From contig JAPLHP010000084.1 in assembly GCA_026389585.1 (NCBI GenBank), forward strand, positions 1 to 38,361: a stretch of 38,361 bases of DNA, given 5' to 3'. Below, one piece after another: positions 656-19,691 of this stretch; positions within the stretch are counted from its first letter, which is position 1, and every line of letters begins with the position of its first letter. This DNA is from Chloroflexota bacterium (GTDB lineage Bacteria > Chloroflexota > Dehalococcoidia > UBA2247 > RBG-13-53-26). The notes beneath the pieces were generated by a model that ran no database searches, had not been told where the DNA came from, and saw only the letters and a list, made by a program, of their open reading frames with translations. Position numbers and translations under genes: made by a program.

Positions 656-671
656 GGAAGGAGAAGAAGCA

Positions 672-2067: not shown

Positions 2068-2637
2068 ATGAACGATCAGGCTGCGATACCGAAGGAGCGG
2101 GTCAGTGACGGTGAGTTCCGGCACTACGTGTTCAGTGTGTCGGAGGTGCGCGCTGAGGCAGAGCGATTTCTGGGGCAAGCAGGATACGAACTGAAGCCTC
2201 CAAAGTACATTGGCCTTGTTCAGCCTGATTTTCGAGCAAAGCGCAAGACGAGCAGTGGTACCTTTGAACTTGTTGGGATGGTGCGTGACAATCTGGATCA
2301 GGCAGTCGAGGCGCTTATCAAGCTGGCTGCCGTAAAGGCTGCCAACCGTGATGTTGATTGTGTCCTGGTGCTCCCCCCCGTAAATGAGTACCTCTTGATT
2401 GAATGGCTGACAGAGGAGAGCGGGCGATGGTACTTTGGCCTGAAGGACTGCAAACTCGTGGTGTGGTTCTGCAATCCGGACAATAAGACAACGATATGCG
2501 TTATTGGAGCGCCGGCAGACAGGGACTTTCAGAAGCACTTCTATATGAGTACGATGAGTTTCGATGACTACATGTCCATCAGAGCGTCTCACCTCATTAA
2601 AGAGAGGCTTCTGGCAGAAGAAGAGGAAGAAGACTAG
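2068..2637 (+). CDS. Unknown protein, ACS-cluster associated (type A)
   Basis: I do not recognise this 189 aa protein. It is soluble, without signal peptide or membrane segments, and ends in an acidic tail (AEEEEED). Its middle and C-terminal parts line up by eye with the unknown protein encoded at 18885-19691. Shared elements are a helix before a GY-x-L turn, an F-x-L-x-x-x-VR strand, a helix rich in L and A, a D-x-x-LV-x-P strand and loop, and a P-x-x-RD-x-x-K-x-F-x-M motif near the end. The alternating hydrophobic strands and helices suggest an alpha/beta fold, perhaps nuclease-like or Rossmann-like, but I see no clear catalytic motif. It sits 9 nt after cdhB and 54 nt before the SDR, so it probably belongs to the same transcript. 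Confidence 0.8.
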   Translation: MNDQAAIPKERVSDGEFRHYVFSVSEVRAEAERFLGQAGYELKPPKYIGLVQPDFRAKRKTSSGTFELVGMVRDNLDQAVEALIKLAAVKAANRDVDCVLVLPPVNEYLLIEWLTEESGRWYFGLKDCKLVVWFCNPDNKTTICVIGAPADRDFQKHFYMSTMSFDDYMSIRASHLIKERLLAEEEEED

Positions 2638-2691
2638 GCCGAAGAAGGCCTTCTAAATCAATCAAAAAATACTCTTGAGGAGGAGGTGAGA

Positions 2692-3782: not shown

Positions 3783-5147
3783 GTGAGTGTTGCGGAAAGT
3801 GCCGAGATAAAGATACCAGCCGGAAGAGAGTATCAGTTGCCGACCGACCCTGATCATCTGTGGGATGGGTTGAGGGATATCGGGTTGGGTATAAGATGGG
3901 TAGCTGAGGTAAAAAAGGTCGACATGCAAATTGAGCTGTCGGGGCCAAAGTGGGAATACAAGAGTTACACCATCCTTGAGATCGTAGAAGAACCGGGGAA
4001 GGTCAGGAATGGCATAGTTAACCTTGTTGGCCCAGATATACATGAAGTCCCGCCTGGGAGCTCTTTCCCTATGGCATGGGACATCAAGGTCTATGGCCAG
4101 GGGATAACCCAGAGACACCGGGAATACATTGAAAGACAAATGGCCATGTCATTACATGGCATAGAGGGCTATATGGCCTTTGGCTCATTCCAGGCCCCCT
4201 GGATGCGCTTCAGCAAGGCTATCGTTGGCCGACTCACCTTTGCGAAGCTGTGCCAGGTCATACATGCCTACGTCAAGACCGTTGTCCCGCAGGTGGAGGC
4301 GATGGAGTTCCGCTGGATCATTGCATCGGAGGAAGTTGGTGGCCTCAAGCTGATTGAGCCACTCTACAGGTTGGGTATTCAGAGGCTGAAGGCGCAGGAA
4401 CTGTCGGTCTCTCTTGAAGATGGTGACGTGGATATCTTCTATGGCTGCACTATCTGCAAGTCGCTGGCCCCCAACCACGTGTGCGTCATTACACCGAGCC
4501 AGATACCGTACTGTGGCATCCTCTCCTATAATGGAGCACAGGTGACGGTGGAGCTTGATCCGGAGGGCTATATCTTCCGAATGCGCAAAGGCGAGTGCAA
4601 AAATGAAGAAAAGGGCAGCTACACCGGTGTGGATGAGGCAGTCTACGAGAGGTCTAATCATCAGATAAAGCGTGTGAATGTCTTCAGTGCCATAAAGTAT
4701 CCTACTACCAACTGCGGTTGCTTCGAAGGGGCGGCATTCTATATTCCTGAGGTAGATGGACTTGGCTTGGCTATAAGACGGTACATTGGGGTAACTCCGT
4801 TGGGCATAAAGTTCTCGCGTCTGGCTGGCATGATTTCAGGCGGCTCTCAGAACCATGGAAATAAGGGCGTATCCATGCGGTCCATGCAAAGCAAGACCTT
4901 TCTCAAGGGCGATGGGGGTTGGAGCAGGATAGTGTGGATGCCCGCCGATTTGAAGAAGGAAGTCGCGGAATACATTCCCGAAGAAATCTACGATAAGATT
5001 GCCACTCAGGAGGATACTGTTGATCCTATCGAGCTGAAGGAGTTTCTAAAGAAGAAGAAGCACCCGATAGTAGAGAAGTATTGGAAGAATGGCGAACCCC
5101 AGCCACTGAAAGTACCATTACCTGGAGCGAATTGGCCCGACGAATAG
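3783..5147 (+). CDS. cdhC: Acetyl-CoA synthase beta subunit, copy 1 (CdhC type)
   Basis: This 454 aa protein is the short, archaeal-type ACS that lacks the N-terminal CODH-docking domain of acetogen AcsB. ACS joins a methyl group from a corrinoid protein, CO and CoA to make acetyl-CoA at the Ni-Ni-[4Fe4S] A-cluster, or runs in reverse. All A-cluster ligands are visible: C222-x2-C225-x8-C234-x9-C244 hold the cubane and bridging Ni, and C311-G-C313 holds the distal Ni. The conserved APNHVC stretch is intact. The residue equivalent to the gating Phe (Phe512 in Moorella ACS) is Leu228. The GTG at 3783 is set 5 nt from an AAGGAGG site; the ATG two bases upstream is out of frame. Zinc-finger gene follows after 16 nt. 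A diverged second copy starts at 8290. Confidence 0.93.
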   Translation: MSVAESAEIKIPAGREYQLPTDPDHLWDGLRDIGLGIRWVAEVKKVDMQIELSGPKWEYKSYTILEIVEEPGKVRNGIVNLVGPDIHEVPPGSSFPMAWDIKVYGQGITQRHREYIERQMAMSLHGIEGYMAFGSFQAPWMRFSKAIVGRLTFAKLCQVIHAYVKTVVPQVEAMEFRWIIASEEVGGLKLIEPLYRLGIQRLKAQELSVSLEDGDVDIFYGCTICKSLAPNHVCVITPSQIPYCGILSYNGAQVTVELDPEGYIFRMRKGECKNEEKGSYTGVDEAVYERSNHQIKRVNVFSAIKYPTTNCGCFEGAAFYIPEVDGLGLAIRRYIGVTPLGIKFSRLAGMISGGSQNHGNKGVSMRSMQSKTFLKGDGGWSRIVWMPADLKKEVAEYIPEEIYDKIATQEDTVDPIELKEFLKKKKHPIVEKYWKNGEPQPLKVPLPGANWPDE

Positions 5148-5655: not shown

Positions 5656-8163
5656 GTGAAAGATAAGAGAATTGCTCATGTCGGATCTCTGGAGGTCGAT
5701 ATCAGCACAGTCGTGCGTGACCCGCGCGGTCATGAAGACGAAATTGTCGAGATAATGGAGAACGACTTTGTTGAGGGCCGCCATAGTAATTTTGGAGGGC
5801 GGATAACTCTGCTGCCCGATGCAGCAGACATAGCGGAACTGGATTATGCTCTGCTGAACAGGTATCCACCGTTATACACTCAGCCCAAGGGAGTTTGCAC
5901 TGACTGTGGCCTGGGCCCCTGCAACTTGAAAGAGGATCAGGGAAAGTGCGGACTGGATATGGACGCTTTCCAGGGCAGGTTAAGCTTGCGCAAAGCATGC
6001 CGGGGTTGTATGACTCAACTAGTGGCCAGCCGACAATTGCTGAACTATGCTCTCAAACGCTGGCCAGAGGATACGCCTGTCAGCATGGGTGAGATTCTCG
6101 GTATCTCGGATCATGCTCCTGCCATAAGCGTATTATCCGGGATACACGTAAAGACTTTAGGGGATCTTAACAGAGCGCTTTCTTATGGAGAGGAACAGCT
6201 GGCCAAGCTCTTTCAGGCGAGTTATTCGGGCACTGGAACTGCGGTGAATTTTGAAAGCATGGTGCTGCATGCCGGGTCTGTTTTGCTCCTCACCATGGGT
6301 GTGGCTGAGATGCTGAAGATCTCCTGCTATGGCTTTATCAGTGCTGCCAATCAGCCACTGGATGGGATAGAACAGTTTCCTCCTGCTACTTTAAGTGGTG
6401 GATGGGCATCCATGGAGAGTGGAAAGCCTGTTATAGCCTTTGTTGGGGATGACTTCCTGCCGGCATGGTGTGCCATCGATCATATGAAGCAGAACGGTGT
6501 GACGGAAAAAATTGAGATATGCGGCATGGGTTCAGCCGGTGATGACATAGTGAGATTCTACGATAGGTGCCGGATCGTGGCCCCGATGGTGAGGGCGCCA
6601 AAGGCGATCAGGAATGGCCTGTTTGATGTGGTTGTAGTCAGTCCAGGCTGTATTCCCCTGGACATTCTATCCCAGGCGGAGCGTGTTGATAGCAAGGTTA
6701 TATGGGTTGGGCACAATGGAATCAGCAATCTAGTGGATAGCACGGATGAGCCATCAGACAAGATAGTAGAGGCCTTACTTCATGGAGAAAAGGCAGTCTG
6801 GATCAGGGATGTAGAGAAGGCTGGTGAGGTGGCGGTGAAGTTGGCACAGAAGGTAAAGAGAAGCGGTAATTACATTATCTCTGACGATGAAGCAATGAAG
6901 CAGGCAAAGGGCCACAAGCAGGATTGTGATATTTGTTCCAGTGTCTGTCCTAATGGGTTGCCTGTGTCCAGGGCAGTCAGAGAATTGAGTAATGGTGACT
7001 GGAAGGGTTTCTTCGAGGTGGAGAAGGGATGCAATTTCTGCGGCAAATGTGATGAGGCCTGCCCCAGCAAGGTTAAACTGCGCGATGTCATTGTAGCTGC
7101 CGAAAGAAAGCAGGCCGGCACCGATAAATTCACAATGAGGCCAGGCAGGGGGCCGATATCCATAACTGAGCTGCTGCAATCTGCTTTCGCAGTAGGCTGG
7201 GGCAGCATACCAGCTATGGTGACCATCTTTGGTTGCGGCGATGCTAAGAAGGAGGAGATTGCCTGGCTAGCCAGTGAGTTGCTTAACGGCGGTTGCATGG
7301 TCTTTGTGGCAGGGTGTGCCGGAGCTGAAGTGGCTCGATCTTTCAGCCAGGCGAAGAAGAAGTACCTCTTTCAAGAATATGCTGGCACTTGTGCCTCGAG
7401 AAATATTGTGAATTGCGGCAGTTGCTCCGCTATTTGCCATGCTGTTCCGATGTATCTCATGCTGCGGCCTTCTGGTGGCATTCCTCTGTTTGGCAATATA
7501 CCGCCGCTGGGAGATTCCATCAGTCTTGGTGGTGCTCAGTCTGTGATCATGTGGGGGGCATTGCCGGACAGGATGTATGCGGTGGCGGCTGCCTGGGCCC
7601 GGCTTGGATCAACGGTCATTGTAGGGCCTGCTTCATCCTCAGGATGGAACCGCTACCTGGTTGGTGATAGATATGATCGCAGCAAGTGGTGGGTCTATCA
7701 TGGTGAGACGGGTAAGAGGCGTGAGGTTGAACCAGTAAAGGAACACTGCATTGTGCCCGTGGAAACTAAAGAGGAAGCGTTGACTATGCTGGCAAGGTCT
7801 GTGTTGAATGTAAGGGACTACAGAGAGAGCCGGGCTACTCACCTGGAGGTGATGATTGACTACTTTGAGCGCTTCTATCGGCAGCTGCCGGAGGATTGGC
7901 CTCTCTTTGTGAGGTCGGATTTCGAACTGCCGCCGAGATACAGACGACGTATGGTCAATCTCCTGGAATCCGAGTATGGATGGGAGACTGAAGGTGTGAA
8001 GGTTAAGAGGGCAAAGAATAGAGATGGCAAGCTAATGACCATGTCTGAGTTCGCAGCTACCTATGGGATGGAGCAAGGGATATATACCACAAGGCTTCGC
8101 ACCCAGTTACCCCTGCGTCTCAGGGGTGTGGCTGATGAAGGCAAGTCTAAAAATCGGCCGTAA
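5656..8163 (+). CDS. CdhA/CODH-like Fe-S protein with altered C-cluster, copy 1
   Basis: This 835 aa protein is related to the alpha subunit of archaeal CO dehydrogenase (CdhA, about 800 aa). B-cluster cysteines C81, C84, C89 and C98 are intact. A ferredoxin-like insert holds C424, C427, C431 (with H420 where copy 2 has Cys) and C459, C462, C465, C469. For the C-cluster, the cubane cysteines (C332, C527, C554) and the Ni ligand Cys (C590, GSC) are present. The pendant-iron His (GHN in CODH) is GDD at 264-266, and the Cys of the GxCC motif is replaced by GS at 292-293. Proton-relay histidines after C118 read Q121, A124, Q127, and the catalytic Lys is R639. Normal CO/CO2 conversion is therefore doubtful. 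The GTG at 5656 follows GGGAGGGAGA. Mapping of ligands is from memory of the family. Confidence 0.88.
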   Translation: MKDKRIAHVGSLEVDISTVVRDPRGHEDEIVEIMENDFVEGRHSNFGGRITLLPDAADIAELDYALLNRYPPLYTQPKGVCTDCGLGPCNLKEDQGKCGLDMDAFQGRLSLRKACRGCMTQLVASRQLLNYALKRWPEDTPVSMGEILGISDHAPAISVLSGIHVKTLGDLNRALSYGEEQLAKLFQASYSGTGTAVNFESMVLHAGSVLLLTMGVAEMLKISCYGFISAANQPLDGIEQFPPATLSGGWASMESGKPVIAFVGDDFLPAWCAIDHMKQNGVTEKIEICGMGSAGDDIVRFYDRCRIVAPMVRAPKAIRNGLFDVVVVSPGCIPLDILSQAERVDSKVIWVGHNGISNLVDSTDEPSDKIVEALLHGEKAVWIRDVEKAGEVAVKLAQKVKRSGNYIISDDEAMKQAKGHKQDCDICSSVCPNGLPVSRAVRELSNGDWKGFFEVEKGCNFCGKCDEACPSKVKLRDVIVAAERKQAGTDKFTMRPGRGPISITELLQSAFAVGWGSIPAMVTIFGCGDAKKEEIAWLASELLNGGCMVFVAGCAGAEVARSFSQAKKKYLFQEYAGTCASRNIVNCGSCSAICHAVPMYLMLRPSGGIPLFGNIPPLGDSISLGGAQSVIMWGALPDRMYAVAAAWARLGSTVIVGPASSSGWNRYLVGDRYDRSKWWVYHGETGKRREVEPVKEHCIVPVETKEEALTMLARSVLNVRDYRESRATHLEVMIDYFERFYRQLPEDWPLFVRSDFELPPRYRRRMVNLLESEYGWETEGVKVKRAKNRDGKLMTMSEFAATYGMEQGIYTTRLRTQLPLRLRGVADEGKSKNRP

Positions 8164-8289
8164 GTAAATACGAACCCCCCGCCAGGTTCTGTACCCTGGC
8201 ACGATAGCACGTTGGGAATAGGGGTTTCTGAACATAGAAACCGGCTGTGTTGTGCTTGTCAATATAGGTTCCACGAAAGGGGTATACAA
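8164..8289 (+). other. Intergenic stem-loop region between the two modules
   Basis: The 126-nt gap contains a 6-bp hairpin GCCAGG (8181-8186) with CCTGGC (8195-8200), itself flanked by imperfectly complementary GAACCCCC and GGGGTTTC segments. No T-tract follows. No promoter of note was seen. It may serve transcript processing between the duplicated modules. Confidence 0.35.
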
Positions 8290-9657
8290 ATGGCTATTCC
8301 AGAGGAAGAAGCAGTATCCAAACTCCCACCGGGAAGGATATTTCAGTTGCCGACCGACCTGGATCACCTTTGGGACGGGCTGGATGACGTCGGGCTCGGT
8401 CTAAGGTGGTTGAGTGAGGTGAAGAGAGCTGACATGCACATTGAGTTGGGTGGGCCTAAGTGGGACTATAAGATGTTCTCCATCTTCTACATTGAGGAAG
8501 ATCCGGAGAAGGTCAAGGATGGCGAAGTCAAGTTGATCGGCCCGGACATTCCGGAAGTGGCACCAGGTACCTCATTACCCGGTGGGTTTACGATAAGGAT
8601 CTATGGTAAACAATTGACTCAAGCACATCAGGGCTATGTATCCAGACAGATAGGAACTGCGCTGCAAGGCATAGAAGGATTCATGCTCTTTGGAACGCCA
8701 GATGCTCTGTGGATAAGGATAAACAAAGACGTGGCTAACAGGTTGACCTTTGCCAAGATATCTCAGTTTTGCTATGCCACCGCGAGAACGCTGCTCCCTC
8801 AGGTAGATGCCATATCATTCTTCTGGGCCATAGGGGCTCCTGAAGTCGGTGGTGTTGAGATGCTAAACCCGCTGGTTACCTGGGCGAAGGAGAAGTTGAA
8901 GATCATAAGTGCTAAGGAGCTCTACGATGACGAAGACGTAGATACCTTCTACGGTTGCACGATCTGCAAATCCCTGGCGCCAAATCATGCCTGTGTCCTT
9001 ACGCCAAGCGCGCTGCCTTACTGCGGCATCATTGGCTATGATTCGGCTAGGGTAACAGCAGAAATAGACCCGGAAGGGTATGTTTTTACTATTCCTAAAG
9101 GTGAATGCTTGGATGCGGAGAAAGGGCATTACACGGGAGTCGACCAGGCCATATGGGAGAAATGCAATCATCTGGTAAAGCGTGTGAACATCTACAGCAG
9201 CATAAACTATCCGACTACCAATTGTGGGTGTTTTGAGGCAGCATCTTTCTACATACCAGATGCTGATGGTATCGGTCTGGCTATGCGGCGCTATACTAAG
9301 ATGACACCGCTCGGTGTCAAGTTTTCCACTTTGGCAGGTATGATCTCCGGTGGGGCTCAAAATCATGGGTTCAAGGGATTGTCGATTGCCGGTATGGCGA
9401 GTAAGAACTTTCTGCGAGGAGACGGCGGTTGGAACAGGGTAGTCTGGATGCCTGCGGATTTGAAGAGGGATATCGCGGATGTGATTCCAGAGGAGGTCTA
9501 TGACAAGATTGTCACCGAGGAAGAGACTATCGATCCTCTGGAGCTCAAGGAGTTGCTCCGCAAGAAAGGACATCCAATAGTAAAGATGTTCTGGAAGAAT
9601 GGCGAACCCCAGCCATTAAAGTTGCCGCTTCCCGGTGAAGACTGGCCGGATAACTAA
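8290..9657 (+). CDS. cdhC: Acetyl-CoA synthase beta subunit, copy 2 (CdhC type)
   Basis: This second 455 aa ACS aligns with copy 1 almost without gaps apart from one extra N-terminal residue. The A-cluster ligands are all kept: C223, C226, C235, C245 and the C312-G-C314 motif. The gate position is again Leu (CTICKSLAPNH). It differs from copy 1 at many surface positions and carries extra cysteines (for example C161), so it is a diverged paralogue rather than a recent duplicate. I chose ATG 8290, which follows an AAAGGGG site by 7 nt; the frame is open from 8212, but that extension (MGIGVSEHRN...) has no counterpart in copy 1. Expected role: acetyl-CoA formation or cleavage with the neighbouring Zn-finger and CODH-like proteins. 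Confidence 0.93.
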   Translation: MAIPEEEAVSKLPPGRIFQLPTDLDHLWDGLDDVGLGLRWLSEVKRADMHIELGGPKWDYKMFSIFYIEEDPEKVKDGEVKLIGPDIPEVAPGTSLPGGFTIRIYGKQLTQAHQGYVSRQIGTALQGIEGFMLFGTPDALWIRINKDVANRLTFAKISQFCYATARTLLPQVDAISFFWAIGAPEVGGVEMLNPLVTWAKEKLKIISAKELYDDEDVDTFYGCTICKSLAPNHACVLTPSALPYCGIIGYDSARVTAEIDPEGYVFTIPKGECLDAEKGHYTGVDQAIWEKCNHLVKRVNIYSSINYPTTNCGCFEAASFYIPDADGIGLAMRRYTKMTPLGVKFSTLAGMISGGAQNHGFKGLSIAGMASKNFLRGDGGWNRVVWMPADLKRDIADVIPEEVYDKIVTEEETIDPLELKELLRKKGHPIVKMFWKNGEPQPLKLPLPGEDWPDN

Positions 9658-9897: not shown

Positions 9898-9938
9898 GAG
9901 GTACCCTTTTCTGGTGATGGTTGCTGAGGAGAGAAGTA

Positions 9939-12425
9939 ATGGAGAAGAAGAGGATTGCCCATGTAGGGCCTCACAAAGTTGACATAAGTGAAGTGGTGCG
10001 TGATCCCCGTGGTATTGAGGATATAGTCACGGAGATACTGGAGAAAGACTTTGTTGGGAGCCGCTATTCACAATTTGGGGCGTGGTTGAGTATCTTGCCC
10101 GACGCGGCGGATATCGGGGATTGGGATCGCACTCTGCTGGAAAGATATGTGCCGCTATATACCCAGTTTCAAGGCACGTGCATTGATTGCGAGTTAGGTA
10201 CTTGCAGTCTCAAGGCAAGCCAGGGCAAATGCGGATTAGGGATGGATTCGTTTCAAGGCAGGCTGAGTTTGCGCAAGGCCTGCCGTGGCTGTATGGGCCA
10301 GATGGTAGCTACTCGTCATTTGTTGAACTATGCATTGAAGTTATGGGATGAAAGCAAGGCTGTCAGCATGGGTGAGCTCTTGGCCATGTCAGATGCCTGT
10401 CCTCCTGTAGGCACTTTGAGCGGCATCTATGTGAAAACCCTCAAGGACTTGAACAGGGTGCTCTCATACGGAGAGGCGCAGTTGGCTAAGCTGATGTCTG
10501 CGAGCTATTCAGGCACCGGAACAGTGGCGGATTTTGAAAGCATGGTGATGCACGCTGGTTCTGTTCTGCTTCTGGCTATGGGAGTGTCTGAGATGATTAA
10601 GGTCGCTTGCTTCGGCTTTACGTCAGCCGCTAACCATAAGATTGATGAACTGGAGAATTTCCCGCCGGCCAACGTGGTTGGAGGATGGTCGTCCATACAG
10701 GAAGGAAAGCCGGTAATCGCCTTTGTCGGCGATGATTTTCTGCCGGCATGGTGTGCCATAGAGTATCTCAAGCAGAATGAATTGTTGGACAAAGTCGAGA
10801 TATGCGGTGTTGGCCCTGCAGGTGATGACGTGGTGCGCTTCTATGACAAGTGCCGCATAATTGCTCCGATGGTGAAGGCGGGCAAAGCTATCAGAAATGG
10901 CGTCTTCGATGTGGTTGTAGCTGCGAACGGATGTATTCCTTTGGATCTACTATCTGAAGCGGCAAGGGTGAAGAGCAAGTTCATATGGGTAGGAGCGCAG
11001 GGAGTTGGCGATCTGGTTGATAAGACTGATGAACCTCTGGATAAGATAGTGAGTGCCCTGGTTGATGGTGAAGAGGCAGTTTGGATTAGAGATGTTGAGA
11101 AGGCTGGCCAGGTAGCAGTCAAGGTAGTCCAGCAAGTGAAGGGAACACGGAAATTTATTCTAAATGATGAGTTGGCAGTTGAGCAGGCTAAGAAGTGTAA
11201 GGATGATTGTGATCTTTGCTCTATCGCTTGCCCCAATAGCTTGCCATTATCAAAGGCGGTCAGACTGTTACGCGGCGGTAACTGGGATGGTTTCTCAGAG
11301 GTGGAGGGAGGGTGCTATTTCTGTGGAAAGTGTGAAGAGGCTTGCCCGGCTGAAGTGAGGCTGCGGGACATAATAGTAGCGACTGAAAGGAAACAAGCGA
11401 GCAAGGACAAATTCATTATGAGAGCGGGAAGAGGTCCTCTCCCCCTCACTGAGATACTGCAGTCGGCTTTTTCCATGGTCTGGGGTAATGCTCCCGGTAT
11501 CGTGGTGATAGCGGGTTGTGGTGATGCTCACCGCGATGATATCGGATGGCTGGCTCAAGAATTAACCAGACGAAACTGCATTGTCTTCGTGGCTGGATGT
11601 GCTGGTGCTGAGATTGCCCGCAACCACAACGAAAGGAAGGGCAAGTATATTTTTGAGCAGTACCTGGCTTCTATTGAGCCACGATCTCTCATCAACTGCG
11701 GTGGCTGCACCGCAGTTGCCCTGGCGAATAACATGTATATGTACTCGCGTGCTGCCGGAGGCATTCCTCTCTATGGGGGCATACCAGAGGTAGGCGAAGG
11801 GTCACTTTATTCTACCTTCACGTTGCTTGTATGGGGTGCTCTGCCTGACAGGATGTATGCAGCAGCAGCAGCATATGCCCGTCTTGGGATAAGGGTTGTA
11901 GTGGGTCCGGCTTCAGGTTGGACTTGGGGTCGCTATTTGCCTGGCAATAGGTATGATCGGAGCAAATGGTGGGTCTATCATGGAGACAATGGTAGTAAGA
12001 GAGAAACCGAACCTATTCCGGAGCATTTTATTATCCCCGTGGAAACCAAAGAGGAAGCGCTGACCATGATGCCCCACACTTTCTTCAGTACATCTGAGAT
12101 GAGGGAGGGTCGGGCTGCTCGTCTTGACCTGCTTATTGAGTTGTATCGGCTGTTCTATGGCCAACTTCCCGATGATTGGAACTTGTTGGTGAGGTCCTAT
12201 TTGGATATCCCGACGAGACACAGGATCAGATTGGTTAAGCTGCTTCGGGATGAATATGGTTGGGAAGGCGATGGATTGAAGATTACCAAGGCCAGGAATC
12301 GTGATGGGAAACTGTTAACCCTGTCGGAATTCAATACCAGCTACGGTATGGAGCTGGGAAGATACCACTGCAGACTGAAGAGGCTGTTGCCAAAGAGTGT
12401 GAAAGATAGAGAAAAGGGCAGTTAG
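9939..12425 (+). CDS. CdhA/CODH-like Fe-S protein with altered C-cluster, copy 2
   Basis: This 828 aa paralogue of the protein at 5656-8163 aligns with it without gaps for over 600 residues (31 of the first 50 residues identical by my count). B-cluster C81, C84, C89, C98 and both ferredoxin-type clusters (C420, C424, C427, C431; C459, C462, C465, C469) are complete. C-cluster cubane and Ni cysteines are C332, C527, C554 and C590, the last in a GGC rather than GSC context. As in copy 1, the pendant-iron His is replaced (GDD 264-266) and its Cys partner is lost (GP at 292-293); the catalytic Lys is R638. Of three relay histidines only H127 remains. The ATG at 9939 matches the start of copy 1 and follows GAGGAG. 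Its stop overlaps the stop of the convergent gene. Confidence 0.88.
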   Translation: MEKKRIAHVGPHKVDISEVVRDPRGIEDIVTEILEKDFVGSRYSQFGAWLSILPDAADIGDWDRTLLERYVPLYTQFQGTCIDCELGTCSLKASQGKCGLGMDSFQGRLSLRKACRGCMGQMVATRHLLNYALKLWDESKAVSMGELLAMSDACPPVGTLSGIYVKTLKDLNRVLSYGEAQLAKLMSASYSGTGTVADFESMVMHAGSVLLLAMGVSEMIKVACFGFTSAANHKIDELENFPPANVVGGWSSIQEGKPVIAFVGDDFLPAWCAIEYLKQNELLDKVEICGVGPAGDDVVRFYDKCRIIAPMVKAGKAIRNGVFDVVVAANGCIPLDLLSEAARVKSKFIWVGAQGVGDLVDKTDEPLDKIVSALVDGEEAVWIRDVEKAGQVAVKVVQQVKGTRKFILNDELAVEQAKKCKDDCDLCSIACPNSLPLSKAVRLLRGGNWDGFSEVEGGCYFCGKCEEACPAEVRLRDIIVATERKQASKDKFIMRAGRGPLPLTEILQSAFSMVWGNAPGIVVIAGCGDAHRDDIGWLAQELTRRNCIVFVAGCAGAEIARNHNERKGKYIFEQYLASIEPRSLINCGGCTAVALANNMYMYSRAAGGIPLYGGIPEVGEGSLYSTFTLLVWGALPDRMYAAAAAYARLGIRVVVGPASGWTWGRYLPGNRYDRSKWWVYHGDNGSKRETEPIPEHFIIPVETKEEALTMMPHTFFSTSEMREGRAARLDLLIELYRLFYGQLPDDWNLLVRSYLDIPTRHRIRLVKLLRDEYGWEGDGLKITKARNRDGKLLTLSEFNTSYGMELGRYHCRLKRLLPKSVKDREKGS

Positions 12426-12919
12426 TCTTCCTCGTCCTCAGTTTTCTCTGATTTTACGAGGTCAAGTGCGCTGAAGGGGCATTTTTCAGGACATAGGTTA
12501 CAGATATCAAGGCCCGGTACTGCGCGTTTACAGCTTGACCATTCTACTACGTTAAGATTGCCGTCTATTACCTTAATGACTGGTGGTACGGGAGCGCGCT
12601 GAGAGAGCCTGCCGCCGGAAGTGATAGTGGTAAGTGCTCTATTGCAGACGGCGACGCAATCACCGCAACCGGTGCATCTCGACCTATCAATGACGTGATC
12701 TGTCCCTTTGATGCGCTCTCCTTCCCCCAACATCTCCTTCAGCATATTGTATGAATCACGGAATTCTTCCTTGAGAAGGAGAGGGCAGTCAGTCGGCTTC
12801 TTATTCCTGCTTATGAGGTCGAAGGCAAAGGCATAACACGTGGGAGAACCACAGAGCTTACAATTGGTACGTGGCAATAGCCTGTATATCTGGAGCGGTT
12901 GAAGATCTTTCTTAGGCAA
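12422..12919 (-). CDS. Three-cluster Fe-S protein with CdhE/AcsC-type N-terminal domain
   Basis: This 165 aa protein has twelve cysteines in three groups. The first (C20-x2-C23-x4-C28-x16-C45) matches the 4Fe-4S domain found at the N terminus of the corrinoid protein large subunit AcsC/CdhE (NCKLCGSPTCYAFAF). The second is a classical ferredoxin motif (C82, C85, C88, C92), and the third is C130, C140, C143, C147. It is likely an electron carrier between the FwdB/D-like pair and another redox protein. The TTG start overlaps the end of the fwdD-like gene and is 4 nt from AGGAGG. Its stop TAA overlaps the stop of the convergent CODH-like gene. A full corrinoid protein or CdhD gene is not in the window. 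Confidence 0.85.
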   Translation of the reverse strand: MPKKDLQPLQIYRLLPRTNCKLCGSPTCYAFAFDLISRNKKPTDCPLLLKEEFRDSYNMLKEMLGEGERIKGTDHVIDRSRCTGCGDCVAVCNRALTTITSGGRLSQRAPVPPVIKVIDGNLNVVEWSSCKRAVPGLDICNLCPEKCPFSALDLVKSEKTEDEED

Positions 12920-13313
12920 CTTTCCTCCTGACCAGGAGGTCTGAGGTCGGGGTAATATTCTTTTCGGTCGGCATGGCTGTCACATCTATCATCTTAAGGT
13001 TTGGCAGTTGCGATACCGATGGATCGTAGCTTCCCAGGTAGTTAGAATATAGGCTGGACGGCATATGGCCTATGCCTTCTTCGATAGCGGTTTCTGATTT
13101 TACTGTCACCACCACGGAGCCTGATTTGCCTTTGAGCTCGATAGGGGCGCCATTCTTAAGCCCCAGCTTTTTCAGATCAGTCGCGGATAGGTGCACCACG
13201 GCAGACTTGGTCTGATATTCATCGCCCAATCCATCTCTCTGCCTGGCAATCGCTTGGTGGATGTCGTCATAGGTCACGATGGTCAGACTAATACCTTGGT
13301 TAGATGAATCCAT
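12912..13313 (-). CDS. fwdD: Formylmethanofuran dehydrogenase subunit D-like (molybdopterin-binding)
   Basis: This protein of 133 aa resembles FwdD/FmdD, the domain that completes the molybdopterin-guanine-dinucleotide pocket of formylmethanofuran dehydrogenase. It has the double-psi beta-barrel pattern: AVVHLSATDLKKLGLKNG, followed by PIELKGKSGSVVVTVK and an EGIGHMPSSLYSN segment. The ATG at 13313 overlaps the stop of the fwdB-like gene (TGATG) and follows GGGAG, so expression is coupled; a TTG directly upstream (13316) is the alternative. Presence of this domain implies that the pair still binds a pterin cofactor, in contrast to the degenerate FhcB of methylotrophs, which lacks a D partner. 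Confidence 0.82.
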   Translation of the reverse strand: MDSSNQGISLTIVTYDDIHQAIARQRDGLGDEYQTKSAVVHLSATDLKKLGLKNGAPIELKGKSGSVVVTVKSETAIEEGIGHMPSSLYSNYLGSYDPSVSQLPNLKMIDVTAMPTEKNITPTSDLLVRRKVA

Positions 13314-14536
13314 CAAATGCTCCCTGCCAGTTGTTTCAGGACTTCTTCCTCAGTAGGATTATCTATCTTCTTTGGGCCGGCTAATGCTACTTCATCCCCA
13401 TCCATTCTTATCATTGAGCCGCCGTATTCTACACCGGGCAGTGCTGTTGGTATGACCACATCAGCGGAGATCGTGGTGGGTGTACGGAAGTGATCCAGAC
13501 AGATGACGTTTATGCCCTGCAGATTCTTTATTATGGACTGAGGCAGGGCTGAAAACGGATCTGAACCCACTATTAGCACACATTCGGGGACACGGTTTCT
13601 TATTTGTTCCAATAAGGAGAACTCACTTCCGTGAGAAATGCCGCCGGCGAAGCTTATGCTATTAACATATCCCGTCTGTTTGTAAAGCGATTGATGGAAT
13701 CCTCTCATGTTGGCTGCTGCTATCATGGGAATTACAGCAATCCTAGTCGACTGACTGAATGTATGTGCCATCTCGCTGAATGAGATGAGATCATTGTCAA
13801 GAGAGTAGATCAGGCCGAGACCGCAGAAGATCGCGCAAAAGCGAGACTTTACCACCATCTCTCTGAATTTTCTGGCTTCATCATGTCCATCCTGTCCCTC
13901 ATCGAGTATGGCATTGATGAATTCCTTATCTTGTCCAGGCCTGATTCTGAAGGACGGCTTACACATTGCGCTCAACTCCGTCTGTCTAACCTCGACGCAG
14001 CTTAGTGTTACCTTGGGAAACCATCCGGCGGGATTGTAATCAGCATAAGCATAGTAAGTGTACTTCGAAAGGTGCCTCGGGTGGGTGTGGGGAGGATTGG
14101 CACCCCAGTAGATTAGCAGGTCTGCCTTATCTTTTACTTCGGAGAGAGAGCATGTTGGCAGATCCTCGGTAAGGATTTTATGCATCATGGCACCGTATGA
14201 AAAGGATGAGGCGTCATCGATCGTTCCACCAAGCCTTTTTGCCAGCTCGATGGCAACCGCCTGTGATTCTAAAGTCGAATTATCAAGACCAAAGACGAGG
14301 AGATTCTTTGCCTTGGAAAAGAGGTGCACTGCCTCTTGAATGGCTTCTCCCAAAGAGCGCCTTTGGCCTCTAATGAGGGCTTCTGCCCGACGCTGTGGAT
14401 CAAAGCTGGAACGAAGATAGGCCGCCCCCTTGGCACAGGCGTTCTCGATACGGCCCAGATTGGCACCGTCGATCTCAACCCGGATATCGTCGCATAGACA
14501 ACCGCATGCGGTGCAGACCAAGCTCTGAGAGCTCAA
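13313..14536 (-). CDS. fwdB: Formylmethanofuran dehydrogenase subunit B-like, metal-ligand Cys replaced
   Basis: This 407 aa protein resembles FwdB/FmdB, the molybdopterin subunit that reduces CO2 to formate in methanogens. The N-terminal 4Fe-4S site is intact (C8, C11, C15, C34; CTACGCLCDDI), and the WGANPPHTHPRH stretch is a family signature. The tungsten/molybdenum ligand Cys118 and His119 of methanogen FwdB fall on S113-Y114 here (DDASSFSYG), so the metal would have no Cys ligand. FwdA, FwdC and Ftr are absent nearby. The TTG start is preceded by GAGG and the next gene overlaps. Role is open: a formate- or formyl-related redox step, or a Fe-S/pterin scaffold. The ligand mapping is from memory. 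Confidence 0.82.
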   Translation of the reverse strand: MSSQSLVCTACGCLCDDIRVEIDGANLGRIENACAKGAAYLRSSFDPQRRAEALIRGQRRSLGEAIQEAVHLFSKAKNLLVFGLDNSTLESQAVAIELAKRLGGTIDDASSFSYGAMMHKILTEDLPTCSLSEVKDKADLLIYWGANPPHTHPRHLSKYTYYAYADYNPAGWFPKVTLSCVEVRQTELSAMCKPSFRIRPGQDKEFINAILDEGQDGHDEARKFREMVVKSRFCAIFCGLGLIYSLDNDLISFSEMAHTFSQSTRIAVIPMIAAANMRGFHQSLYKQTGYVNSISFAGGISHGSEFSLLEQIRNRVPECVLIVGSDPFSALPQSIIKNLQGINVICLDHFRTPTTISADVVIPTALPGVEYGGSMIRMDGDEVALAGPKKIDNPTEEEVLKQLAGSI

Positions 14537-14653: not shown

Positions 14654-16864
14654 TTATGAATACGAAGTGCGAGCTACTGCTGCCTCTTCGACCAGGGTGG
14701 CGGGCAGTTCCTCAGGTCCGACGAGGTAGATTCTCCCCTTCCCTACTTTAGCAATCCTTCTCATCAACTCTGGATCGGCGGATCGCTGGTTGATACAGAC
14801 GCAGGAAATTGTAATACCTCGGCGAGCTACCCTGGCGGCTTGCCTGAGGGCGTACTTCTGTGGGGATGGATGGGGTGCTGTTGCATCGCCATCAGATATG
14901 AGGATAATATGCTGTTTTGCTCTTCCCTTGGGGTGATGTTCCAGCAATTCACAGGCCTTCATCAAACCGTAGCCGATGTTGGTAAAAGCGTTCTCATGTA
15001 GCTCGAGTTCAATTACCCGGCGAGTCACTCTGTGAGGGCTGGCGGTTAGATTGACGACAATATCAGCCAGGTTGGAGAATGAGACCACTGCCACCCTGTC
15101 TTTATAGGCAGTCGCGGCCAGAGAAAGAGCCATCGCGCTTTGCTTGGCGAACCAAAATTTCTCGATCTGCAACATAGTGCCAGAGACATCGATCACCAAG
15201 ACAATATCCATTCTAGTACGGATGTCTTTGATATTGACGATAATATCCTCTCTGGTGATGTATTGTCTTCGGTGGCGGATTGCCTCTCTCATGGTATTTC
15301 TGAAGGATATGTCGCGGTATTTGTCCCCGAAGCGATAGTGGCGCATCCCCACCACTCTGCCCTCGCCCAGGCTCAACTTCTTACCCGAGCTGTGCTTCCC
15401 ATATCCATATAGATAAGCTCCCTCGTCCAACCGCGGTGTCAACTTCTCCAATAGCATGTTAATGCCACGCTGGCTGAGCATCCAGCCGCTGCTGGTGCGT
15501 TCCAGGATATCTTCCTTCTCCAGAAATTCAAGGGTTTTGGCCAGCGCTTGCTGTTCTATAATCTTGGCTATTATTTCCTTCTCTTTTCTGTATTCTTCAA
15601 CTTCCTTAAGCAACTCATCATCGAGATTATCGGCTTTGTATCGTTCCGGGTAGAGCTCTGGCAAGCGACAGGCAATCTCTCTGTATAGCTGGGCCAGCTT
15701 GGAGTCAGGGAATCGTTTGATTCTCCTTAGCAGTAGATCAAAGGAGCCATATTTCAGAGGTTTCCTGAACTTATCTTCCCGGACGATCTCCTCGATCAGG
15801 GCCAGAACATCATCTTTGGTCAGGGTAGCCAGCTGTTCCCTGGCTTCATGTTTGCCGGTTACCTTCTCGACAACTTCCTCAACAATTCGCTCTCTCTTCC
15901 CGGGCAGATCGACCTCCGGGGCCAGTTTAAGGCGGTGGGGCAGCGAGACTGCTGCTGCGACAGAAAGTCTTCTATCGGCGTCCTCGTATTCCTCCAATTC
16001 AGGGAAGTGGGATAGAAGCTCAGCATTTCTAATCATGCCGCGCGTTCCTACCCCCCTTTCTACCTCGCTGTGTCTTCTTGTCTCGTTGACTATGCGAATT
16101 GCCTGCTCAAGAACTGGCTCGGCTAAGGTTTCTATATCACGGCCGATGTGGGTAAGAACAATCCTCTTTTGCTTATCAAGATCGTCAACGTAGTCAAGGT
16201 GGATAACATCAAAGTTGTCTAGCAAGTCCAGTGGTAATGACTTTAGTGCTCCCTCTCCGCCAGTGGCTACTACCAGGGTATCCAGTTTGATCTTTTGTTC
16301 CAACACGCCAATGGTTATTGTTCCATCTTGGAGCGCATACATAACTGCATTGAGCACTCGCTCAGGGATTCTATCGATGAAATCAATCAGCAATATGCCT
16401 CGATTAGCCCGCAACAGTTTTCCGGGCAGGAAAGCACGAGGAGAGCAAATACCTTCCTTGAAGGCTATTTCCGGATCAAGGTCTCCGATCAGATCTTCAA
16501 CCGTTAACCCTCCGCTTCCTTGTATCTTCACCAATCTTCTAGCCGCAGGGAGGATGGTGCTGTGAAGTATTTCACCTCGCTTTTTCCTGTCTATACACCA
16601 GGGGCAGGGATCATTTTGGGGAAAACAATGTAGGGGGCAGCCCTCTACTACCTCAATATCATTCAGAATAACAGATAGACTGTTGGCTAAGCTTGTTTTA
16701 CCACTTCCGGGGGGGCCAAGAATAAGCAGGTGGTGTGCACTGCAGAGGCTGCTTAACAAGGCCAGTTTCTTCGCATCTTCTATTTGAAGATCATCAAAGA
16801 CTGACCGGCTAAACTGGTCAGTGCCTATTCTGTCTAAGGTGGTAAGGATTTCTTCCAGAAGCAA
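14654..16864 (-). CDS. MoxR-type AAA protein fused to VWA domain, degenerate ATPase centre
   Basis: This 736 aa protein joins an N-terminal AAA+ domain of the MoxR/Mg-chelatase-I type to a C-terminal von Willebrand A domain. Walker A (GPPGSGKT, 50-57) and a zinc-binding insertion (C76, C80, C87, C90) are intact. The catalytic Glu of Walker B is Phe (D161-F162), the sensor-1 Asn is gone (TGGEG, 201-205) and the LLDRFD arginine is Asn (LLDNFD, 214-219). The VWA MIDAS is complete as D559-x-S561-x-T563 with a later ISDGDATA loop. MoxR-VWA pairs insert metals or remodel metalloenzymes (CoxD/E, Mg-chelatase I/D, NorQ/D). The TTG start is weakly supported. It lies between CooC and the FwdB-like gene. 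Confidence 0.88.
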   Translation of the reverse strand: MLLEEILTTLDRIGTDQFSRSVFDDLQIEDAKKLALLSSLCSAHHLLILGPPGSGKTSLANSLSVILNDIEVVEGCPLHCFPQNDPCPWCIDRKKRGEILHSTILPAARRLVKIQGSGGLTVEDLIGDLDPEIAFKEGICSPRAFLPGKLLRANRGILLIDFIDRIPERVLNAVMYALQDGTITIGVLEQKIKLDTLVVATGGEGALKSLPLDLLDNFDVIHLDYVDDLDKQKRIVLTHIGRDIETLAEPVLEQAIRIVNETRRHSEVERGVGTRGMIRNAELLSHFPELEEYEDADRRLSVAAAVSLPHRLKLAPEVDLPGKRERIVEEVVEKVTGKHEAREQLATLTKDDVLALIEEIVREDKFRKPLKYGSFDLLLRRIKRFPDSKLAQLYREIACRLPELYPERYKADNLDDELLKEVEEYRKEKEIIAKIIEQQALAKTLEFLEKEDILERTSSGWMLSQRGINMLLEKLTPRLDEGAYLYGYGKHSSGKKLSLGEGRVVGMRHYRFGDKYRDISFRNTMREAIRHRRQYITREDIIVNIKDIRTRMDIVLVIDVSGTMLQIEKFWFAKQSAMALSLAATAYKDRVAVVSFSNLADIVVNLTASPHRVTRRVIELELHENAFTNIGYGLMKACELLEHHPKGRAKQHIILISDGDATAPHPSPQKYALRQAARVARRGITISCVCINQRSADPELMRRIAKVGKGRIYLVGPEELPATLVEEAAVARTSYS

Positions 16865-16882: not shown

Positions 16883-17644
16883 TCAACTGTAGCCCAGGAT
16901 CTTCTTGCAGATTTCATCTATCGCAATGGATGCTGGAGAGTCTTTTGGGATCTCGGTCACAGGTTTGCCCTGGCCATCAAACTGTGCGACCAGCGGTTCA
17001 AAGGGAACATAGGCTGCTATCTCAAGCCCGTTTTCCTTGGCCAGTTCGTCTACGCGAGACCTGTTTTCCTCCGTCACCCTGTTGGCCACTATCAGGATGG
17101 CGCCAAACTCGATATTGAGCTCTCTTGATATCTCCACAATTCTCTTAGCAGTTTGAATGGCATTTTTTGTAGGATCAGTAACCACCAGCATGATGTCAAC
17201 ATCCCGGGTAGTGCGCCGACTAAGGTGCTCCAGCCCTGCGTGACAGTCGATTACAGTGAAATCATAACCCCTTGCTCTAGTGTCTATTACCTGTCGGACG
17301 ACGTGGTTGACGGCGCAGTAGCATCCCTCACCTTCCGAACGCCCCATTACCAGTATGTCGAATTGAGGGAACTCCTCGATAGCTTCATGGAGGGCCAGCT
17401 CCAGGTGTTCTTGTTTGGAACTTGTCACCTTGCTACGAGCTGGTGCATTGATAATTGCCTCCCGGCTCTCTCCCACGTTCTTGGTCACTGTTACACCAAG
17501 GGCCTGGGGGAGGTTGGAATCCGGGTCGGCATCAATTGCCAGTACGCTACCGTGCTCGGATAGCTTCTTTACCAGCATGCCTGACACAAAGGTCTTCCCT
17601 ACTCCGCCCTTTCCGGAGACTGCAATAGCAAGTCCTCTGCTCAT
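16883..17644 (-). CDS. cooC: CooC-type nickel-insertion ATPase for CODH/ACS
   Basis: This 253 aa P-loop ATPase of the MinD/NifH-like family has the deviant Walker A motif GKGGVGKT (11-18), the IDADPDSNLPQALG strand and loop typical of CooC/AcsF, and the metal-binding C108-x-C110 motif (GEGCYCAVNH). CooC dimers bind Ni(II) at the CxC pair and deliver it to CODH or, as AcsF, to ACS. Finding it next to ACS genes supports assembly of Ni in the A-cluster. The start ATG at 17644 follows AAGGAAAG and lies three bases after the MoxR stop, so translation is probably coupled. Confidence 0.92.
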   Translation of the reverse strand: MSRGLAIAVSGKGGVGKTFVSGMLVKKLSEHGSVLAIDADPDSNLPQALGVTVTKNVGESREAIINAPARSKVTSSKQEHLELALHEAIEEFPQFDILVMGRSEGEGCYCAVNHVVRQVIDTRARGYDFTVIDCHAGLEHLSRRTTRDVDIMLVVTDPTKNAIQTAKRIVEISRELNIEFGAILIVANRVTEENRSRVDELAKENGLEIAAYVPFEPLVAQFDGQGKPVTEIPKDSPASIAIDEICKKILGYS

Positions 17645-17646
17645 GA

Positions 17647-18681
17647 CTACTTTCCTTCCAGAACGCTATTCACCAGTTCATTGATCAGATTCAGTGGGTC
17701 ATCGTAGAACTTAGACTCAGGCGATGGCTTGATTCTACTACCAAGAGAGGAAGAGGCCATATCCCGTATATCATCTATATTTGCTTCAGATCGGTTTTCC
17801 AGCTTTGCCACAGCCTGTACCTTCTCATAAAGCGAAAGTGTAGCCCTTACACTAGCGGCTTGATCCATCTCCTTTGACCAAGGCTCTTCACGTGTAGCTC
17901 GTACCAGGGTAACCACGGCATCAAGTACTTCATCCGGCACTTTTACATTATCAATCCTGAGCCCATATCGGACTACTATCTCCTTCTCTTTTTCCAGAGA
18001 TTCAGGATAGCCCATCTTGACCACATCAAATCTGTCGAGAAGGACATCGGAAAGCTCCTCGACCCCAGCCCGTTCTCTTGGGTTCATAGTAGCTATCATC
18101 ACAAAATCAGCCGGGTAGTCTACGTCGTAAGGCCCTATCGTCGCGATGCCCTCTTCAAGAACCTCTAATAGAGCATTTTGAAGTTTCTCTGTAACCCTGT
18201 TAAGTTCATCGAAGAAAACGATCCCTCGATTGCCCTTGAGCAATTTCCCTGGCAAGAATGCCCGATAGTCCTGAGGACCATACTTGAAAGCCTGGGTTGG
18301 ATCGATATCTCCCAAAAGGTCCTCAGCAGTAAGGTCAGGAGAACCCTGCAACCTGACGAACCTTTGCTCACCAGGAATCATAGTGGACTCCAGTTTCTCA
18401 CCAGTGGAAGCTTTTGCCTTGCACTGTGGGCAGACAGGCTGTTCCGGGTGGCAATGGTAAGGGCAACCCTTCACCACCTTTATGGGAGGCAAAGCTGCTG
18501 CTATATGCTTGGCGAGAGTAGTCTTGCCAACTCCAGGCGGTCCCTCAATCAGCATGTGATGGCCAGCCAGCAATGACGCAAGTATCCTCTTCTTGGCATC
18601 ATCCTGGCCCACAATGACTGAAAGCATGTCATTCCCATCAGCCACAGATTTCAGGATCGCTTCTCTTAGTCCCTCAATCAT
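17647..18681 (-). CDS. MoxR-family AAA+ ATPase, intact, with zinc-type insertion
   Basis: This 344 aa AAA+ ATPase has a complete active centre: Walker A GPPGVGKT (residues 47-54), Walker B FFDELN, sensor-1 ATMNPRE and the LLDRFD arginine. An insertion CPYHCHPEQPVCPQC holds four cysteines in the same pattern as in the fused MoxR-VWA protein, so the two AAA domains are paralogues and may form mixed rings. I infer that this protein supplies ATP hydrolysis and the VWA fusion supplies target binding in a metallocofactor insertion step for the ACS/CODH-like complex. I chose ATG 18681 after AGGAGG; a GTG one codon upstream is the alternative. It is the first gene of the leftward operon; a weak promoter (TTGGTT, 18 bp, TATACT) lies just upstream. 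Confidence 0.9.
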   Translation of the reverse strand: MIEGLREAILKSVADGNDMLSVIVGQDDAKKRILASLLAGHHMLIEGPPGVGKTTLAKHIAAALPPIKVVKGCPYHCHPEQPVCPQCKAKASTGEKLESTMIPGEQRFVRLQGSPDLTAEDLLGDIDPTQAFKYGPQDYRAFLPGKLLKGNRGIVFFDELNRVTEKLQNALLEVLEEGIATIGPYDVDYPADFVMIATMNPRERAGVEELSDVLLDRFDVVKMGYPESLEKEKEIVVRYGLRIDNVKVPDEVLDAVVTLVRATREEPWSKEMDQAASVRATLSLYEKVQAVAKLENRSEANIDDIRDMASSSLGSRIKPSPESKFYDDPLNLINELVNSVLEGK

Positions 18682-18819
18682 CACTCCTCCTGGTTAAGAA
18701 GTATACTATACAATCTTAATCTGAACCAATCAGGAGTGATTGCTTGGTGGGGGTGGTTGCTGAGTATCAGGAGGCTTTTCTGGGTTGGTGGATGAACTGA
18801 ATATTGGTGCTTTGACGCT

Positions 18820-18848
18820 TTGACCATGTGGATAGTGATTGCTATAAT
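18820..18848 (+). promoter_or_regulatory. Sigma-70 promoter of the second unknown protein gene
   Basis: TTGACC at 18820-18825 and TATAAT at 18843-18848 are separated by 17 bp. The predicted transcription start is near 18855, which is inside the longest open frame starting at 18828, so the real start codon must lie downstream. Confidence 0.7.
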
Positions 18849-18884
18849 GGCCTCGTGGCACGAACAAATGGGGTCCCCGCTAAG

Positions 18885-19691
18885 ATGTTGACGGTAGGTG
18901 AAGTCAACAGTACTTTTGCTGAAAAGGGAGTAGATATTAAGCTGCCGTTGCCCACCCACTTTTTGGTAAAGGATCTGCAGGTTCTTGAGAGAAGGAAAGT
19001 CCCGGGTGGAGTGGGGCTACTCTTGAGGGTAGAGTTCATAAATGATAATGGGGAGGAAGTTACCGATCTGTTTCACTGTGAAGGAGGGGTAAAGGTAGAG
19101 GGTAAAAGGAAGACTGAAACAGCAGAGATTCAGCAGCCACCCCTGACAGACCTGCTGCCCCTGCGCTCGAAAGAGGAATTTGAGAGTGATGATGAGGTGA
19201 AGTCCTATTTGAAAGAAGCGATCAGTCACCTGCTGCAGGATAAGGGGTACCGACTTGGTGAGCGCAACGATGTTGATTTGTATTTTGAGCGGCAGGAGCA
19301 GGGGTTCTTTGTTAGTCTGGCAGTACGGTGTGACGAGTCACTCCTTGAAAAGGCGAAGATATTAGTAGAACTAAGGCAGAGGCATGGCGTTGATAATGAG
19401 TATGGCCTGATAGTCCCAGCCTTTCAGGATTCTCTGGGGGTTCCGCTTCTAAGTCAGGAGCGCTGGATGTTGAGAAACCAGGAGTTCCTGGCAATAAATC
19501 GGATCGGGATCTATGCTGTTGATAATTGGAATCCCAATCTGCTCTATGCTTTTACTATTCACCCTTCCCCAAGAGATCTCAAGAAATACTTCATGACTAC
19601 GGGACCTAAGTGGTCTCTGGTTCGTAGCCGCTATGTTCTGGGCAGATCTAAGAAGAAGGCGGCTGGTCTTGAGTCTCCATCGGATGGTTAG
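18885..19691 (+). CDS. Unknown protein, partner to the ACS-cluster protein (type B)
   Basis: I do not recognise this protein (268 aa from the ATG at 18885). Its last 150 or so residues resemble the protein encoded at 2068-2637, including GYRL, F-x-SLAVR, a leucine-rich helix, LIVPAFQD, and PSPRDLKKYFMTT. The N-terminal 80 residues form a basic, beta-rich segment of their own. A promoter at 18820-18848 overlaps the 5' part of the open frame, so the frame start at 18828 is excluded. GTG 18855 at the predicted transcription start would give a leaderless message, and ATG 18885 has only a weak ribosome site. It is transcribed away from the MoxR-cooC operon and towards clpC. Confidence 0.75.
   Translation: MLTVGEVNSTFAEKGVDIKLPLPTHFLVKDLQVLERRKVPGGVGLLLRVEFINDNGEEVTDLFHCEGGVKVEGKRKTETAEIQQPPLTDLLPLRSKEEFESDDEVKSYLKEAISHLLQDKGYRLGERNDVDLYFERQEQGFFVSLAVRCDESLLEKAKILVELRQRHGVDNEYGLIVPAFQDSLGVPLLSQERWMLRNQEFLAINRIGIYAVDNWNPNLLYAFTIHPSPRDLKKYFMTTGPKWSLVRSRYVLGRSKKKAAGLESPSDG

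Follow-up and report, generated by a model that had tools for sequence, protein, structure and literature searches.

The window, a 38,361-nucleotide stretch of a Dehalococcoidia genome (contig JAPLHP010000084.1), carries on its minus strand three consecutive genes for a FwdB-like subunit of 407 aa without the Cys, His and Arg of the metal site (13313..14536), a FwdD-like subunit of 134 aa (12912..13316), and an Fe–S protein of 165 aa (12422..12919), at exactly the positions given by an earlier, sequence-only reading of this DNA. On the plus strand lie two altered CODHs, CdhA1 (5656..8163) and CdhA2 (9921..12425), two CdhC-like (ACS) proteins with intact A-cluster cysteines (3783..5147 and 8212..9657, the latter matching NF003379 with E=2e-114), a CdhB (epsilon)-like subunit (1588..2058; TIGR00315, E=8e-9), and a short-chain dehydrogenase (2686..3612) that is linked in several genomes of family f1. 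Three further genes are found on the minus strand: an AAA/VWA (BchD/CoxE-like) protein that is a probable metal-insertion chaperone and is linked in relatives (14654..16864), a CooC/MinD-like probable Ni-insertion ATPase (16883..17644), and a MoxR/ChlI-like AAA ATPase (17647..18684). Two conserved plus-strand proteins are not assigned to a family and have no significant match to each other: u2068 (2068..2637), which adjoins FwdB in deep-lineage operons, and u18828 (18828..19691), which closes the deep-lineage operon. A repeat artefact was considered and rejected, since the region has one weak inverted repeat and no more.

The FwdB-like protein matches TIGR03129 over its whole length (E=1e-93; 314.2 bits, slightly below the 327.8 cutoff), and FwdB chains in the PDB match its sequence with E 7e-52. 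Its AlphaFold model (pLDDT 90.6) aligns to FwdB structures with Z 47–48, including 5t5i_B at Z 47. Thus, the HMM alignment and the superposition that the sequence-only reading had proposed as checks both point to a full-length FwdB/FmdB homologue by sequence and predicted fold, its bit score slightly under the cutoff; the equivalents of the Cys/Sec ligand, His119 and Arg288 are replaced by S113, Y114, and I272. Three alignments agree that S113-Y114, encoded by TCA TAC at 14195..14200 on the minus strand, occupies the position of the M. wolfei metal-ligand pair Cys118-His119, as had been claimed, and a check for Cys or Sec at this site found neither, with no in-frame TGA. All 79 canonical FwdB homologues have the ligand Cys and the His (100%). 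Moreover, the codon at 13721..13723 (minus strand) places I272 at the position of the invariant Arg288, a number obtained for M. wolfei by counting from His290; this residue is Arg in 79/79 canonical proteins (100%) and Ile, Val or Leu in 11/11 members of the clade.

The FwdB-like orthologues form a single clade within Dehalococcoidia, in which the loss is graded: Arg is gone from 11/11, His from 10/11, and Cys from 8/11, so that three retain the ligand Cys and one of them (L089) the Cys-His pair. In the aligned sequences, the feature common to the clade is therefore the loss of Arg288, and that of Cys is not clade-wide. The dipeptide at the metal position varies among Ser followed by Tyr, Trp or Phe, Gly-Leu, Cys-Gln, and Cys-His. 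Ser replaces Cys in seven of the eight genomes of the window's family, with an aromatic residue next to it in all seven, one member of that family (L092) has Gly-Leu, and the deep members have Cys-Gln or Cys-His. The clade-conserved Cys319 and Cys234 were considered as replacement ligands, but neither aligns with the metal site.

Such a loss of all or part of the catalytic triad makes catalysis of the formate dehydrogenase (FDH) type by this clade appear unlikely, to judge from the residues. That the protein is nevertheless a CO2 reductase or FDH with an unusual active site could be argued from the Cys-His pair of L089 and from position His290, where most members of the window's family have the Glu that is found in FDHs, but the absence of Arg288 from every member, of Cys and His from the window protein, and of FwdA for formate uptake makes it very improbable. 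The progressive loss of catalytic residues might also be taken as the decay of a non-functional gene set, which is hardly credible, since the frames are open in all 11 aligned copies, third codon positions consistently differ more than first and second ones, and the operon is kept across four families; the first two of these observations led us to reject a pseudogene.

Several features outside the metal site are retained. The N-terminal [4Fe–4S] motif (C8, C11, C13, C15 ... C34; 14435..14515, minus strand) is kept in 10/10 orthologues covering that region, and the nucleotide-side (cofactor-side) residues of FwdB are kept in the window protein, with W144, H152, H155, R184, D203, G239, G241, N276, D326, and P332 present in 11/11 orthologues and N147 as Asn or Asp. 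The FwdD-like partner, present in every locus, matches NF042908 (E=1e-10) and FwdD structures (AlphaFold pLDDT 89, Z 17–19). The third protein has three sets of four Cys each (20, 23, 28, 45; 82, 85, 88, 92; 130, 140, 143, 147), 12 in all, which are conserved in orthologues, and its first domain resembles the N-terminal [4Fe–4S] domain of the corrinoid Fe–S protein CdhE/AcsC (PF04060, E=1e-12; 4djd_C, E=2e-6). Both the FwdD-like and the Fe–S partner noted by the sequence-only reading are in place, and its statement that FwdA and FwdC are missing was borne out, with no match reaching the family cutoff in nine draft genomes (the window's and those of eight relatives). Compared with FwdB/FmdB plus FwdD (5t5i, 8rja, 7bkb), the window shares the full-length fold, the N-terminal Fe–S motif, the nucleotide-side residues, and the B/D gene pair, but has no Cys/Sec ligand, His119 or Arg288, no FwdA/FwdC, and a linkage to CODH/ACS instead.

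FhcB of the formyltransferase/hydrolase complex is likewise a FwdB homologue without the metal ligand and the catalytic His and Arg. However, FhcB is accompanied by FhcA, FhcC and FhcD (Ftr), has no FwdD, and has lost its cofactor-side residues: W144, H155, R184, D203, and D326 are absent from 5/5 FhcB controls and kept in 11/11 clade members. Membership in FhcB was therefore rejected against plasmid FhcB controls, on gene partners and residue losses alike, in keeping with the earlier view that this is not the FhcB type. The pterin of Fwd lies at the B/D interface (PMC11656701), and in the FwdD-like protein the Gly (Gly16) of the canonical GRT motif is lost in all orthologues and the Arg (Arg17) in all members of the window's family, so pterin binding may itself be gone. 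Together with the lost catalytic residues and the precedents of FhcB and Nqo3 (PMC10100899), this counts in favour of a pure, pterin-free scaffold that holds a complex together as FhcB does. Such a role seems quite unlikely, given that the residues gone from pterin-free FhcB are kept in every member and that FwdD is retained in every locus.

The sequence-only reading had also held that W or Mo would have no protein thiolate. The part that stands is that the window protein has no Cys or Sec ligand; the absence of a metal does not follow, because ligand-free and Ser-ligated enzymes exist in the superfamily. In DMSO reductase, the metal is ligated by Ser. The conserved cofactor-side pocket could instead be a live, altered metal site, with W/Mo on two pterins bound through Ser113-O, as in DMSO reductase, or by no amino acid, as in arsenite oxidase, and a different reaction performed for the ACS complex. 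AioA (arsenite oxidase) is active without an amino-acid ligand to the metal (PMC10100899). The cofactor is made, as the window's genome has seven molybdopterin oxidoreductase matches, one of them the window's own Sec FDH, and the retained nucleotide-side residues, the retained FwdD, and the Ser-aromatic pair of the window's family would also fit a new active site. Nevertheless, with Gly-Leu in L092 and Cys-Gln or Cys-His in the deep members, no single replacement ligand is conserved, and the FwdD losses also count against it, leaving a metallopterin enzyme of this kind somewhat unlikely.

The neighbouring CODHs are altered as well. In CdhA2, the C-cluster His is replaced by Asp and the first Cys by Pro, the four other C-cluster Cys are kept, and the acid-base His and Lys are replaced by Gln and Arg; CdhA1 has Asp, Ser, Gln, and Arg at the same positions, with Ser where A-4 has Pro. 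The literature already describes this alteration, in the uncharacterised structural group A-4 of the Ni-CODHs (Inoue et al. 2019, PMC6344411). CdhA2 has the A-4 pattern D-P-C-C-C-C / Q / R (PMC6344411 Table 2) and, like that group, is ACS-associated and bacterial, whereas FwdB/FwdD partners are not mentioned in the main text of that paper. Among 393 Dehalococcoidia genomes, the FwdB-like protein was found in exactly the 12 that have an A-4-type CdhA (12/12), which lies in one operon with ACS, and deep-lineage contigs are collinear as CdhC-ChlD-CdhA and CdhA-CdhB-u2068-FwdB-FwdD-FeS. A literature search retrieved no paper joining FwdB-like genes, CODH and Dehalococcoidia; the association with A-4 CODH is absent from the papers searched. 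The coupling with the altered CODH extends far beyond the window, to the same 12 genomes and their collinear operons, whereas the proposed "formyl/CO-like system" is without direct support: neither CO2-handling site is functional, which leaves the ACS A-cluster as the only intact C1 site. In the deep-lineage ACS copies, the distal-Ni cysteines are replaced by in-frame TGA codons that likely encode Sec (peptide NUGUFEA).

The FwdB-like, FwdD-like and 12-Cys Fe–S proteins are tentatively assigned to a second and divergent complex of the CODH/ACS type in Dehalococcoidia, as accessory subunits that mostly transfer electrons and have lost CO2 reduction and formate oxidation, a reading whose chances we place just short of even. 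A FwdB-like protein without its metal-holding and catalytic residues that always accompanies an altered CODH/ACS probably carries electrons within a complex not described before, rather than reducing CO2, as the Cys patterns and gene linkage suggest; the retained N-terminal Cys, cofactor-side residues and FwdD, the strict co-occurrence with altered CdhA, the collinear operons, and the CdhE/AcsC-like Fe–S domain argue for this role. Precedents exist. In Dehalococcoides, which is of the same class, the FDH-like large subunit OmeA has Ser in the place of Sec or Cys, is regarded as lacking FDH activity, and forms part of the electron-transferring organohalide-respiration complex (PMC5736913; PMC10772276). 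However, OmeA is of the FDH-N type and sits in a membrane complex, whereas the window protein is of the FwdB type and linked to CODH/ACS, the conserved block has no gene for a membrane subunit, and the protein does not belong to an OmeA-type CISM. ElpA, a member of the FDH family, has become part of an electron-transfer arm in the Elp-Hdr complex (PMC12350162; Z 29), but has lost the molybdopterin-binding domain, whereas the domains of the window protein are intact.

In the proposed physical complex, low-potential electrons would enter at the 12-Cys Fe–S protein and cross the N-terminal [4Fe–4S] cluster of the FwdB-like subunit, where the two pterins could serve as a structural or redox way-station, provided that the B/D interface still binds them. 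The electrons would then reach the A-4-type CdhA, the Fe–S clusters of which would hand them to the ACS A-cluster. A bolder version would be a new anaerobic C1 or acyl-CoA complex composed of ACS (with Sec in deep lineages), a CODH-like subunit without the unique-iron site, and FwdBD binding W/Mo-pterin via Ser or no protein ligand, performing new chemistry, which we regard as unlikely. If the complex were catalytic, it would represent an undescribed C1 or acyl-CoA metabolic step in a group of sediment bacteria. CODH and FwdB, both core enzymes of CO2 reduction, lose their active sites within one gene cluster with the ACS site intact, and the A-4 CODHs gain a consistent set of partners. It is rare for a pterin-domain protein to retain its cofactor pocket without the ligand, and the Cys-His, Cys-Gln and Ser-aromatic relatives are natural intermediates for testing the change of role.

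MCM genes were not found beside the cluster in G363, so the system as defined here leaves them out; they adjoin it in G000 and G388. A scan of contigs with short peptide patterns identified one clade member (L004) among the 80 loci kept, and other phyla may also have it.

Three genuine open reading frames, placed almost end to end on the minus strand, encode a FwdB-like protein (13313-14536), a FwdD-like protein (12912-13316), and an Fe–S protein (12422-12919) that combines a [4Fe-4S] domain of the CdhE/AcsC type with two more sets of four Cys. TIGR03129 aligns along the length of the FwdB-like protein with 314 bits, a little under the curated cutoff of 327.8, and FwdB chains in solved complexes match it with E values of 1e-37 to 1e-52. 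Its AlphaFold model (pLDDT 90.6) aligns over ~400 residues with 8rja_B, 5t5i_B, and 7bkb_H (Z 46.8-48.5), scores well below these with FhcB 6s6y_B and ElpA 8rvu_D (Z 29), and the predicted model of its partner adopts the FwdD fold (Z 17-19). Thus, reading frames, TIGR03129, and structural alignments, among them the superposition on 5t5i_B and other FwdB, bear out the FwdB/FwdD-like pair with an Fe–S partner proposed by the sequence-only reading, and alignments and codons (TCA TAC) likewise uphold its assignment of S113-Y114 to Cys118-His119 of M. wolfei FwdB. Cys-His occupies this metal-ligand pair in 79/79 canonical homologues, and I272 stands where the canonical PMRGHYN motif has its Arg, a residue exceptionless in canonical homologues (n=79). 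In M. wolfei FwdB, His290 is positioned near the metal (PMC11656701). Taking the H of the motif as this residue makes the motif Arg residue 288. Arg288 is the equivalent of the catalytic Arg of FDH, and S113-Y114 together with I272 therefore leave the window protein without the ligand and without either catalytic neighbour. The same chain carries two clade-specific Cys, C319 (10/11 members; Ala in canonical FwdB) and C234 (7/11 members; Gly in canonical FwdB).

FwdB-like orthologues (42-65% identity) are encoded by 11 further genomes of the same class, presumably Dehalococcoidia, since the relatives have small genomes of Chloroflexota character and L004 belongs to a Chloroflexi MAG. In the tree, a fully supported branch separates these proteins from 42 canonical FwdB. 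In the window's own family of eight genomes, the metal-site dipeptide is Ser-Tyr/Trp/Phe in seven and Gly-Leu in the other (G388), while among the four deep-lineage genomes G335 and G368 present Cys-Gln and G398, from the same order as the family, keeps Cys-His. At the Arg288 position, each of the 11 members that could be scored has I, V or L, the Cys-His one included. Rooted on canonical FwdB, the clade is most simply explained by loss of Arg, then His, then Cys. In FwdD, Gly16 is gone in all clade genomes, and the canonical Arg17, retained in the four deep-lineage genomes and absent in all eight of the family, was lost in parallel with the FwdB-like Cys.

An FhcB identity was rejected, in agreement with the earlier reading. 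Alignment with five plasmid-borne FhcB having FhcA/D/C neighbour genes revealed opposite retention: W144, H155, R184, D203, and D326 are absent in 5/5 FhcB and present in every clade member, whereas G125, R137, P291, and P303 are present in FhcB and almost always lost in the clade. Moreover, FhcB retains A and C partners without pterin (PMC10100899; PMC11656701), whereas the clade keeps FwdD and, as had been claimed, FwdA and FwdC gave no match over cutoff in the nine draft genomes searched. This complementarity suggests that the first residue set may serve the cofactor, and the second may serve contacts with A and C.

The window also holds two CdhA-like (CODH; CdhA1 and CdhA2) and two CdhC-like (ACS) genes. 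In both CdhA copies, the C-cluster His is replaced by Asp, the first C-cluster Cys by Ser or Pro, the acid-base His by Gln, and Lys by Arg, and the remaining four C-cluster Cys are intact. The unique iron of Carboxydothermus hydrogenoformans CODH-II is bound by His261 and Cys295; since both positions are replaced, the unique-iron site of the window CdhA is gone. CdhA2 fits the A-4 structural group (Inoue et al. 2019), putative CODHs with incomplete active-site signatures linked to ACS; the main text of that paper makes no mention of Fwd proteins (PMC6344411). Of 393 genomes surveyed in the class, the 12 with A-4-like CdhA (38-100% identity) are exactly those with FwdB-like, and ordinary CdhA alone (30-34% identity) occurs in 27 more; the nominal chance of this overlap, 4e-23, is overstated because the genomes are related to one another. 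Gene order in deep lineages is ChlI-CooC-CdhC-ChlD-CdhA on a first contig and CdhA-CdhB-u2068-FwdB-FwdD-FeS-u18828 on another, and this collinearity, with the shared genome set, supports the link to an altered CODH made previously. The conserved proteins u2068 (2068-2637, plus strand) and u18828 (18828-19691, plus strand), which adjoin FwdB and FeS in these operons, gave no match in Pfam or NCBIfam. Upstream of the cluster lie methylmalonyl-CoA-mutase-like large and small subunits (38-1088, plus strand), of which G388 has two pairs (L104). In G398, several A-4-like CdhA genes or fragments are found on contigs C82, C111, C30, and C73 (L122, L123, L124, and L101), and the altered CODH appears expanded there.

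The window's genome encodes a separate ordinary set of CdhA, CdhC, and CdhD/E, and the FwdB-like/A-4 system is thus not the housekeeping acetyl-CoA pathway. An FDH large subunit in the window (33645-36983, minus strand), a selenoprotein whose frame is interrupted at ARLUHSST by an in-frame TGA, carries the normal Sec-His, with Fe–S and NrfD-like partners at 31615-33652, and the genome encodes six more matches to molybdopterin oxidoreductases. This FDH is an internal control indicating that the organism produces ordinary metallopterin enzymes. The A-cluster Cys of ACS are complete in every copy of the family. Since both CO2-handling sites are disabled and these Cys intact, the likeliest role of FwdB/FwdD/FeS would be to deliver electrons inside an ACS-centred complex; from the observed residue states and gene linkage we infer complex formation, electron direction, pterin content, and the ACS reaction. 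The nearest precedent, from the same class, is the Dehalococcoides FDH-like protein with Ser at the Sec/Cys position, predicted to be inactive as FDH and a member of the organohalide-respiration complex (PMC5736913), which we read as the same protein as OmeA, the large subunit of that complex (PMC10772276).

The deep-lineage CdhC copies of this system are probably selenocysteine ACS, a subunit (ACS beta) not found in the portions consulted of two prokaryotic selenoprotein lists. In-frame TGA occurs at both distal-Ni Cys of the A-cluster in L135:3-3200 (plus strand, G335; YPTTNUGUFEA) and L136:3628-5169 (minus strand, G398; YSTTNUGUFEA), and only at the first in L137:5351-6769 (plus strand, G335; YPTTNUGCFEA). 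No tRNA-Sec over cutoff was found in G335, a genome 62% complete; one scored above cutoff in G398, and a predicted hairpin lies shortly downstream of the TGA site in each of the three loci.
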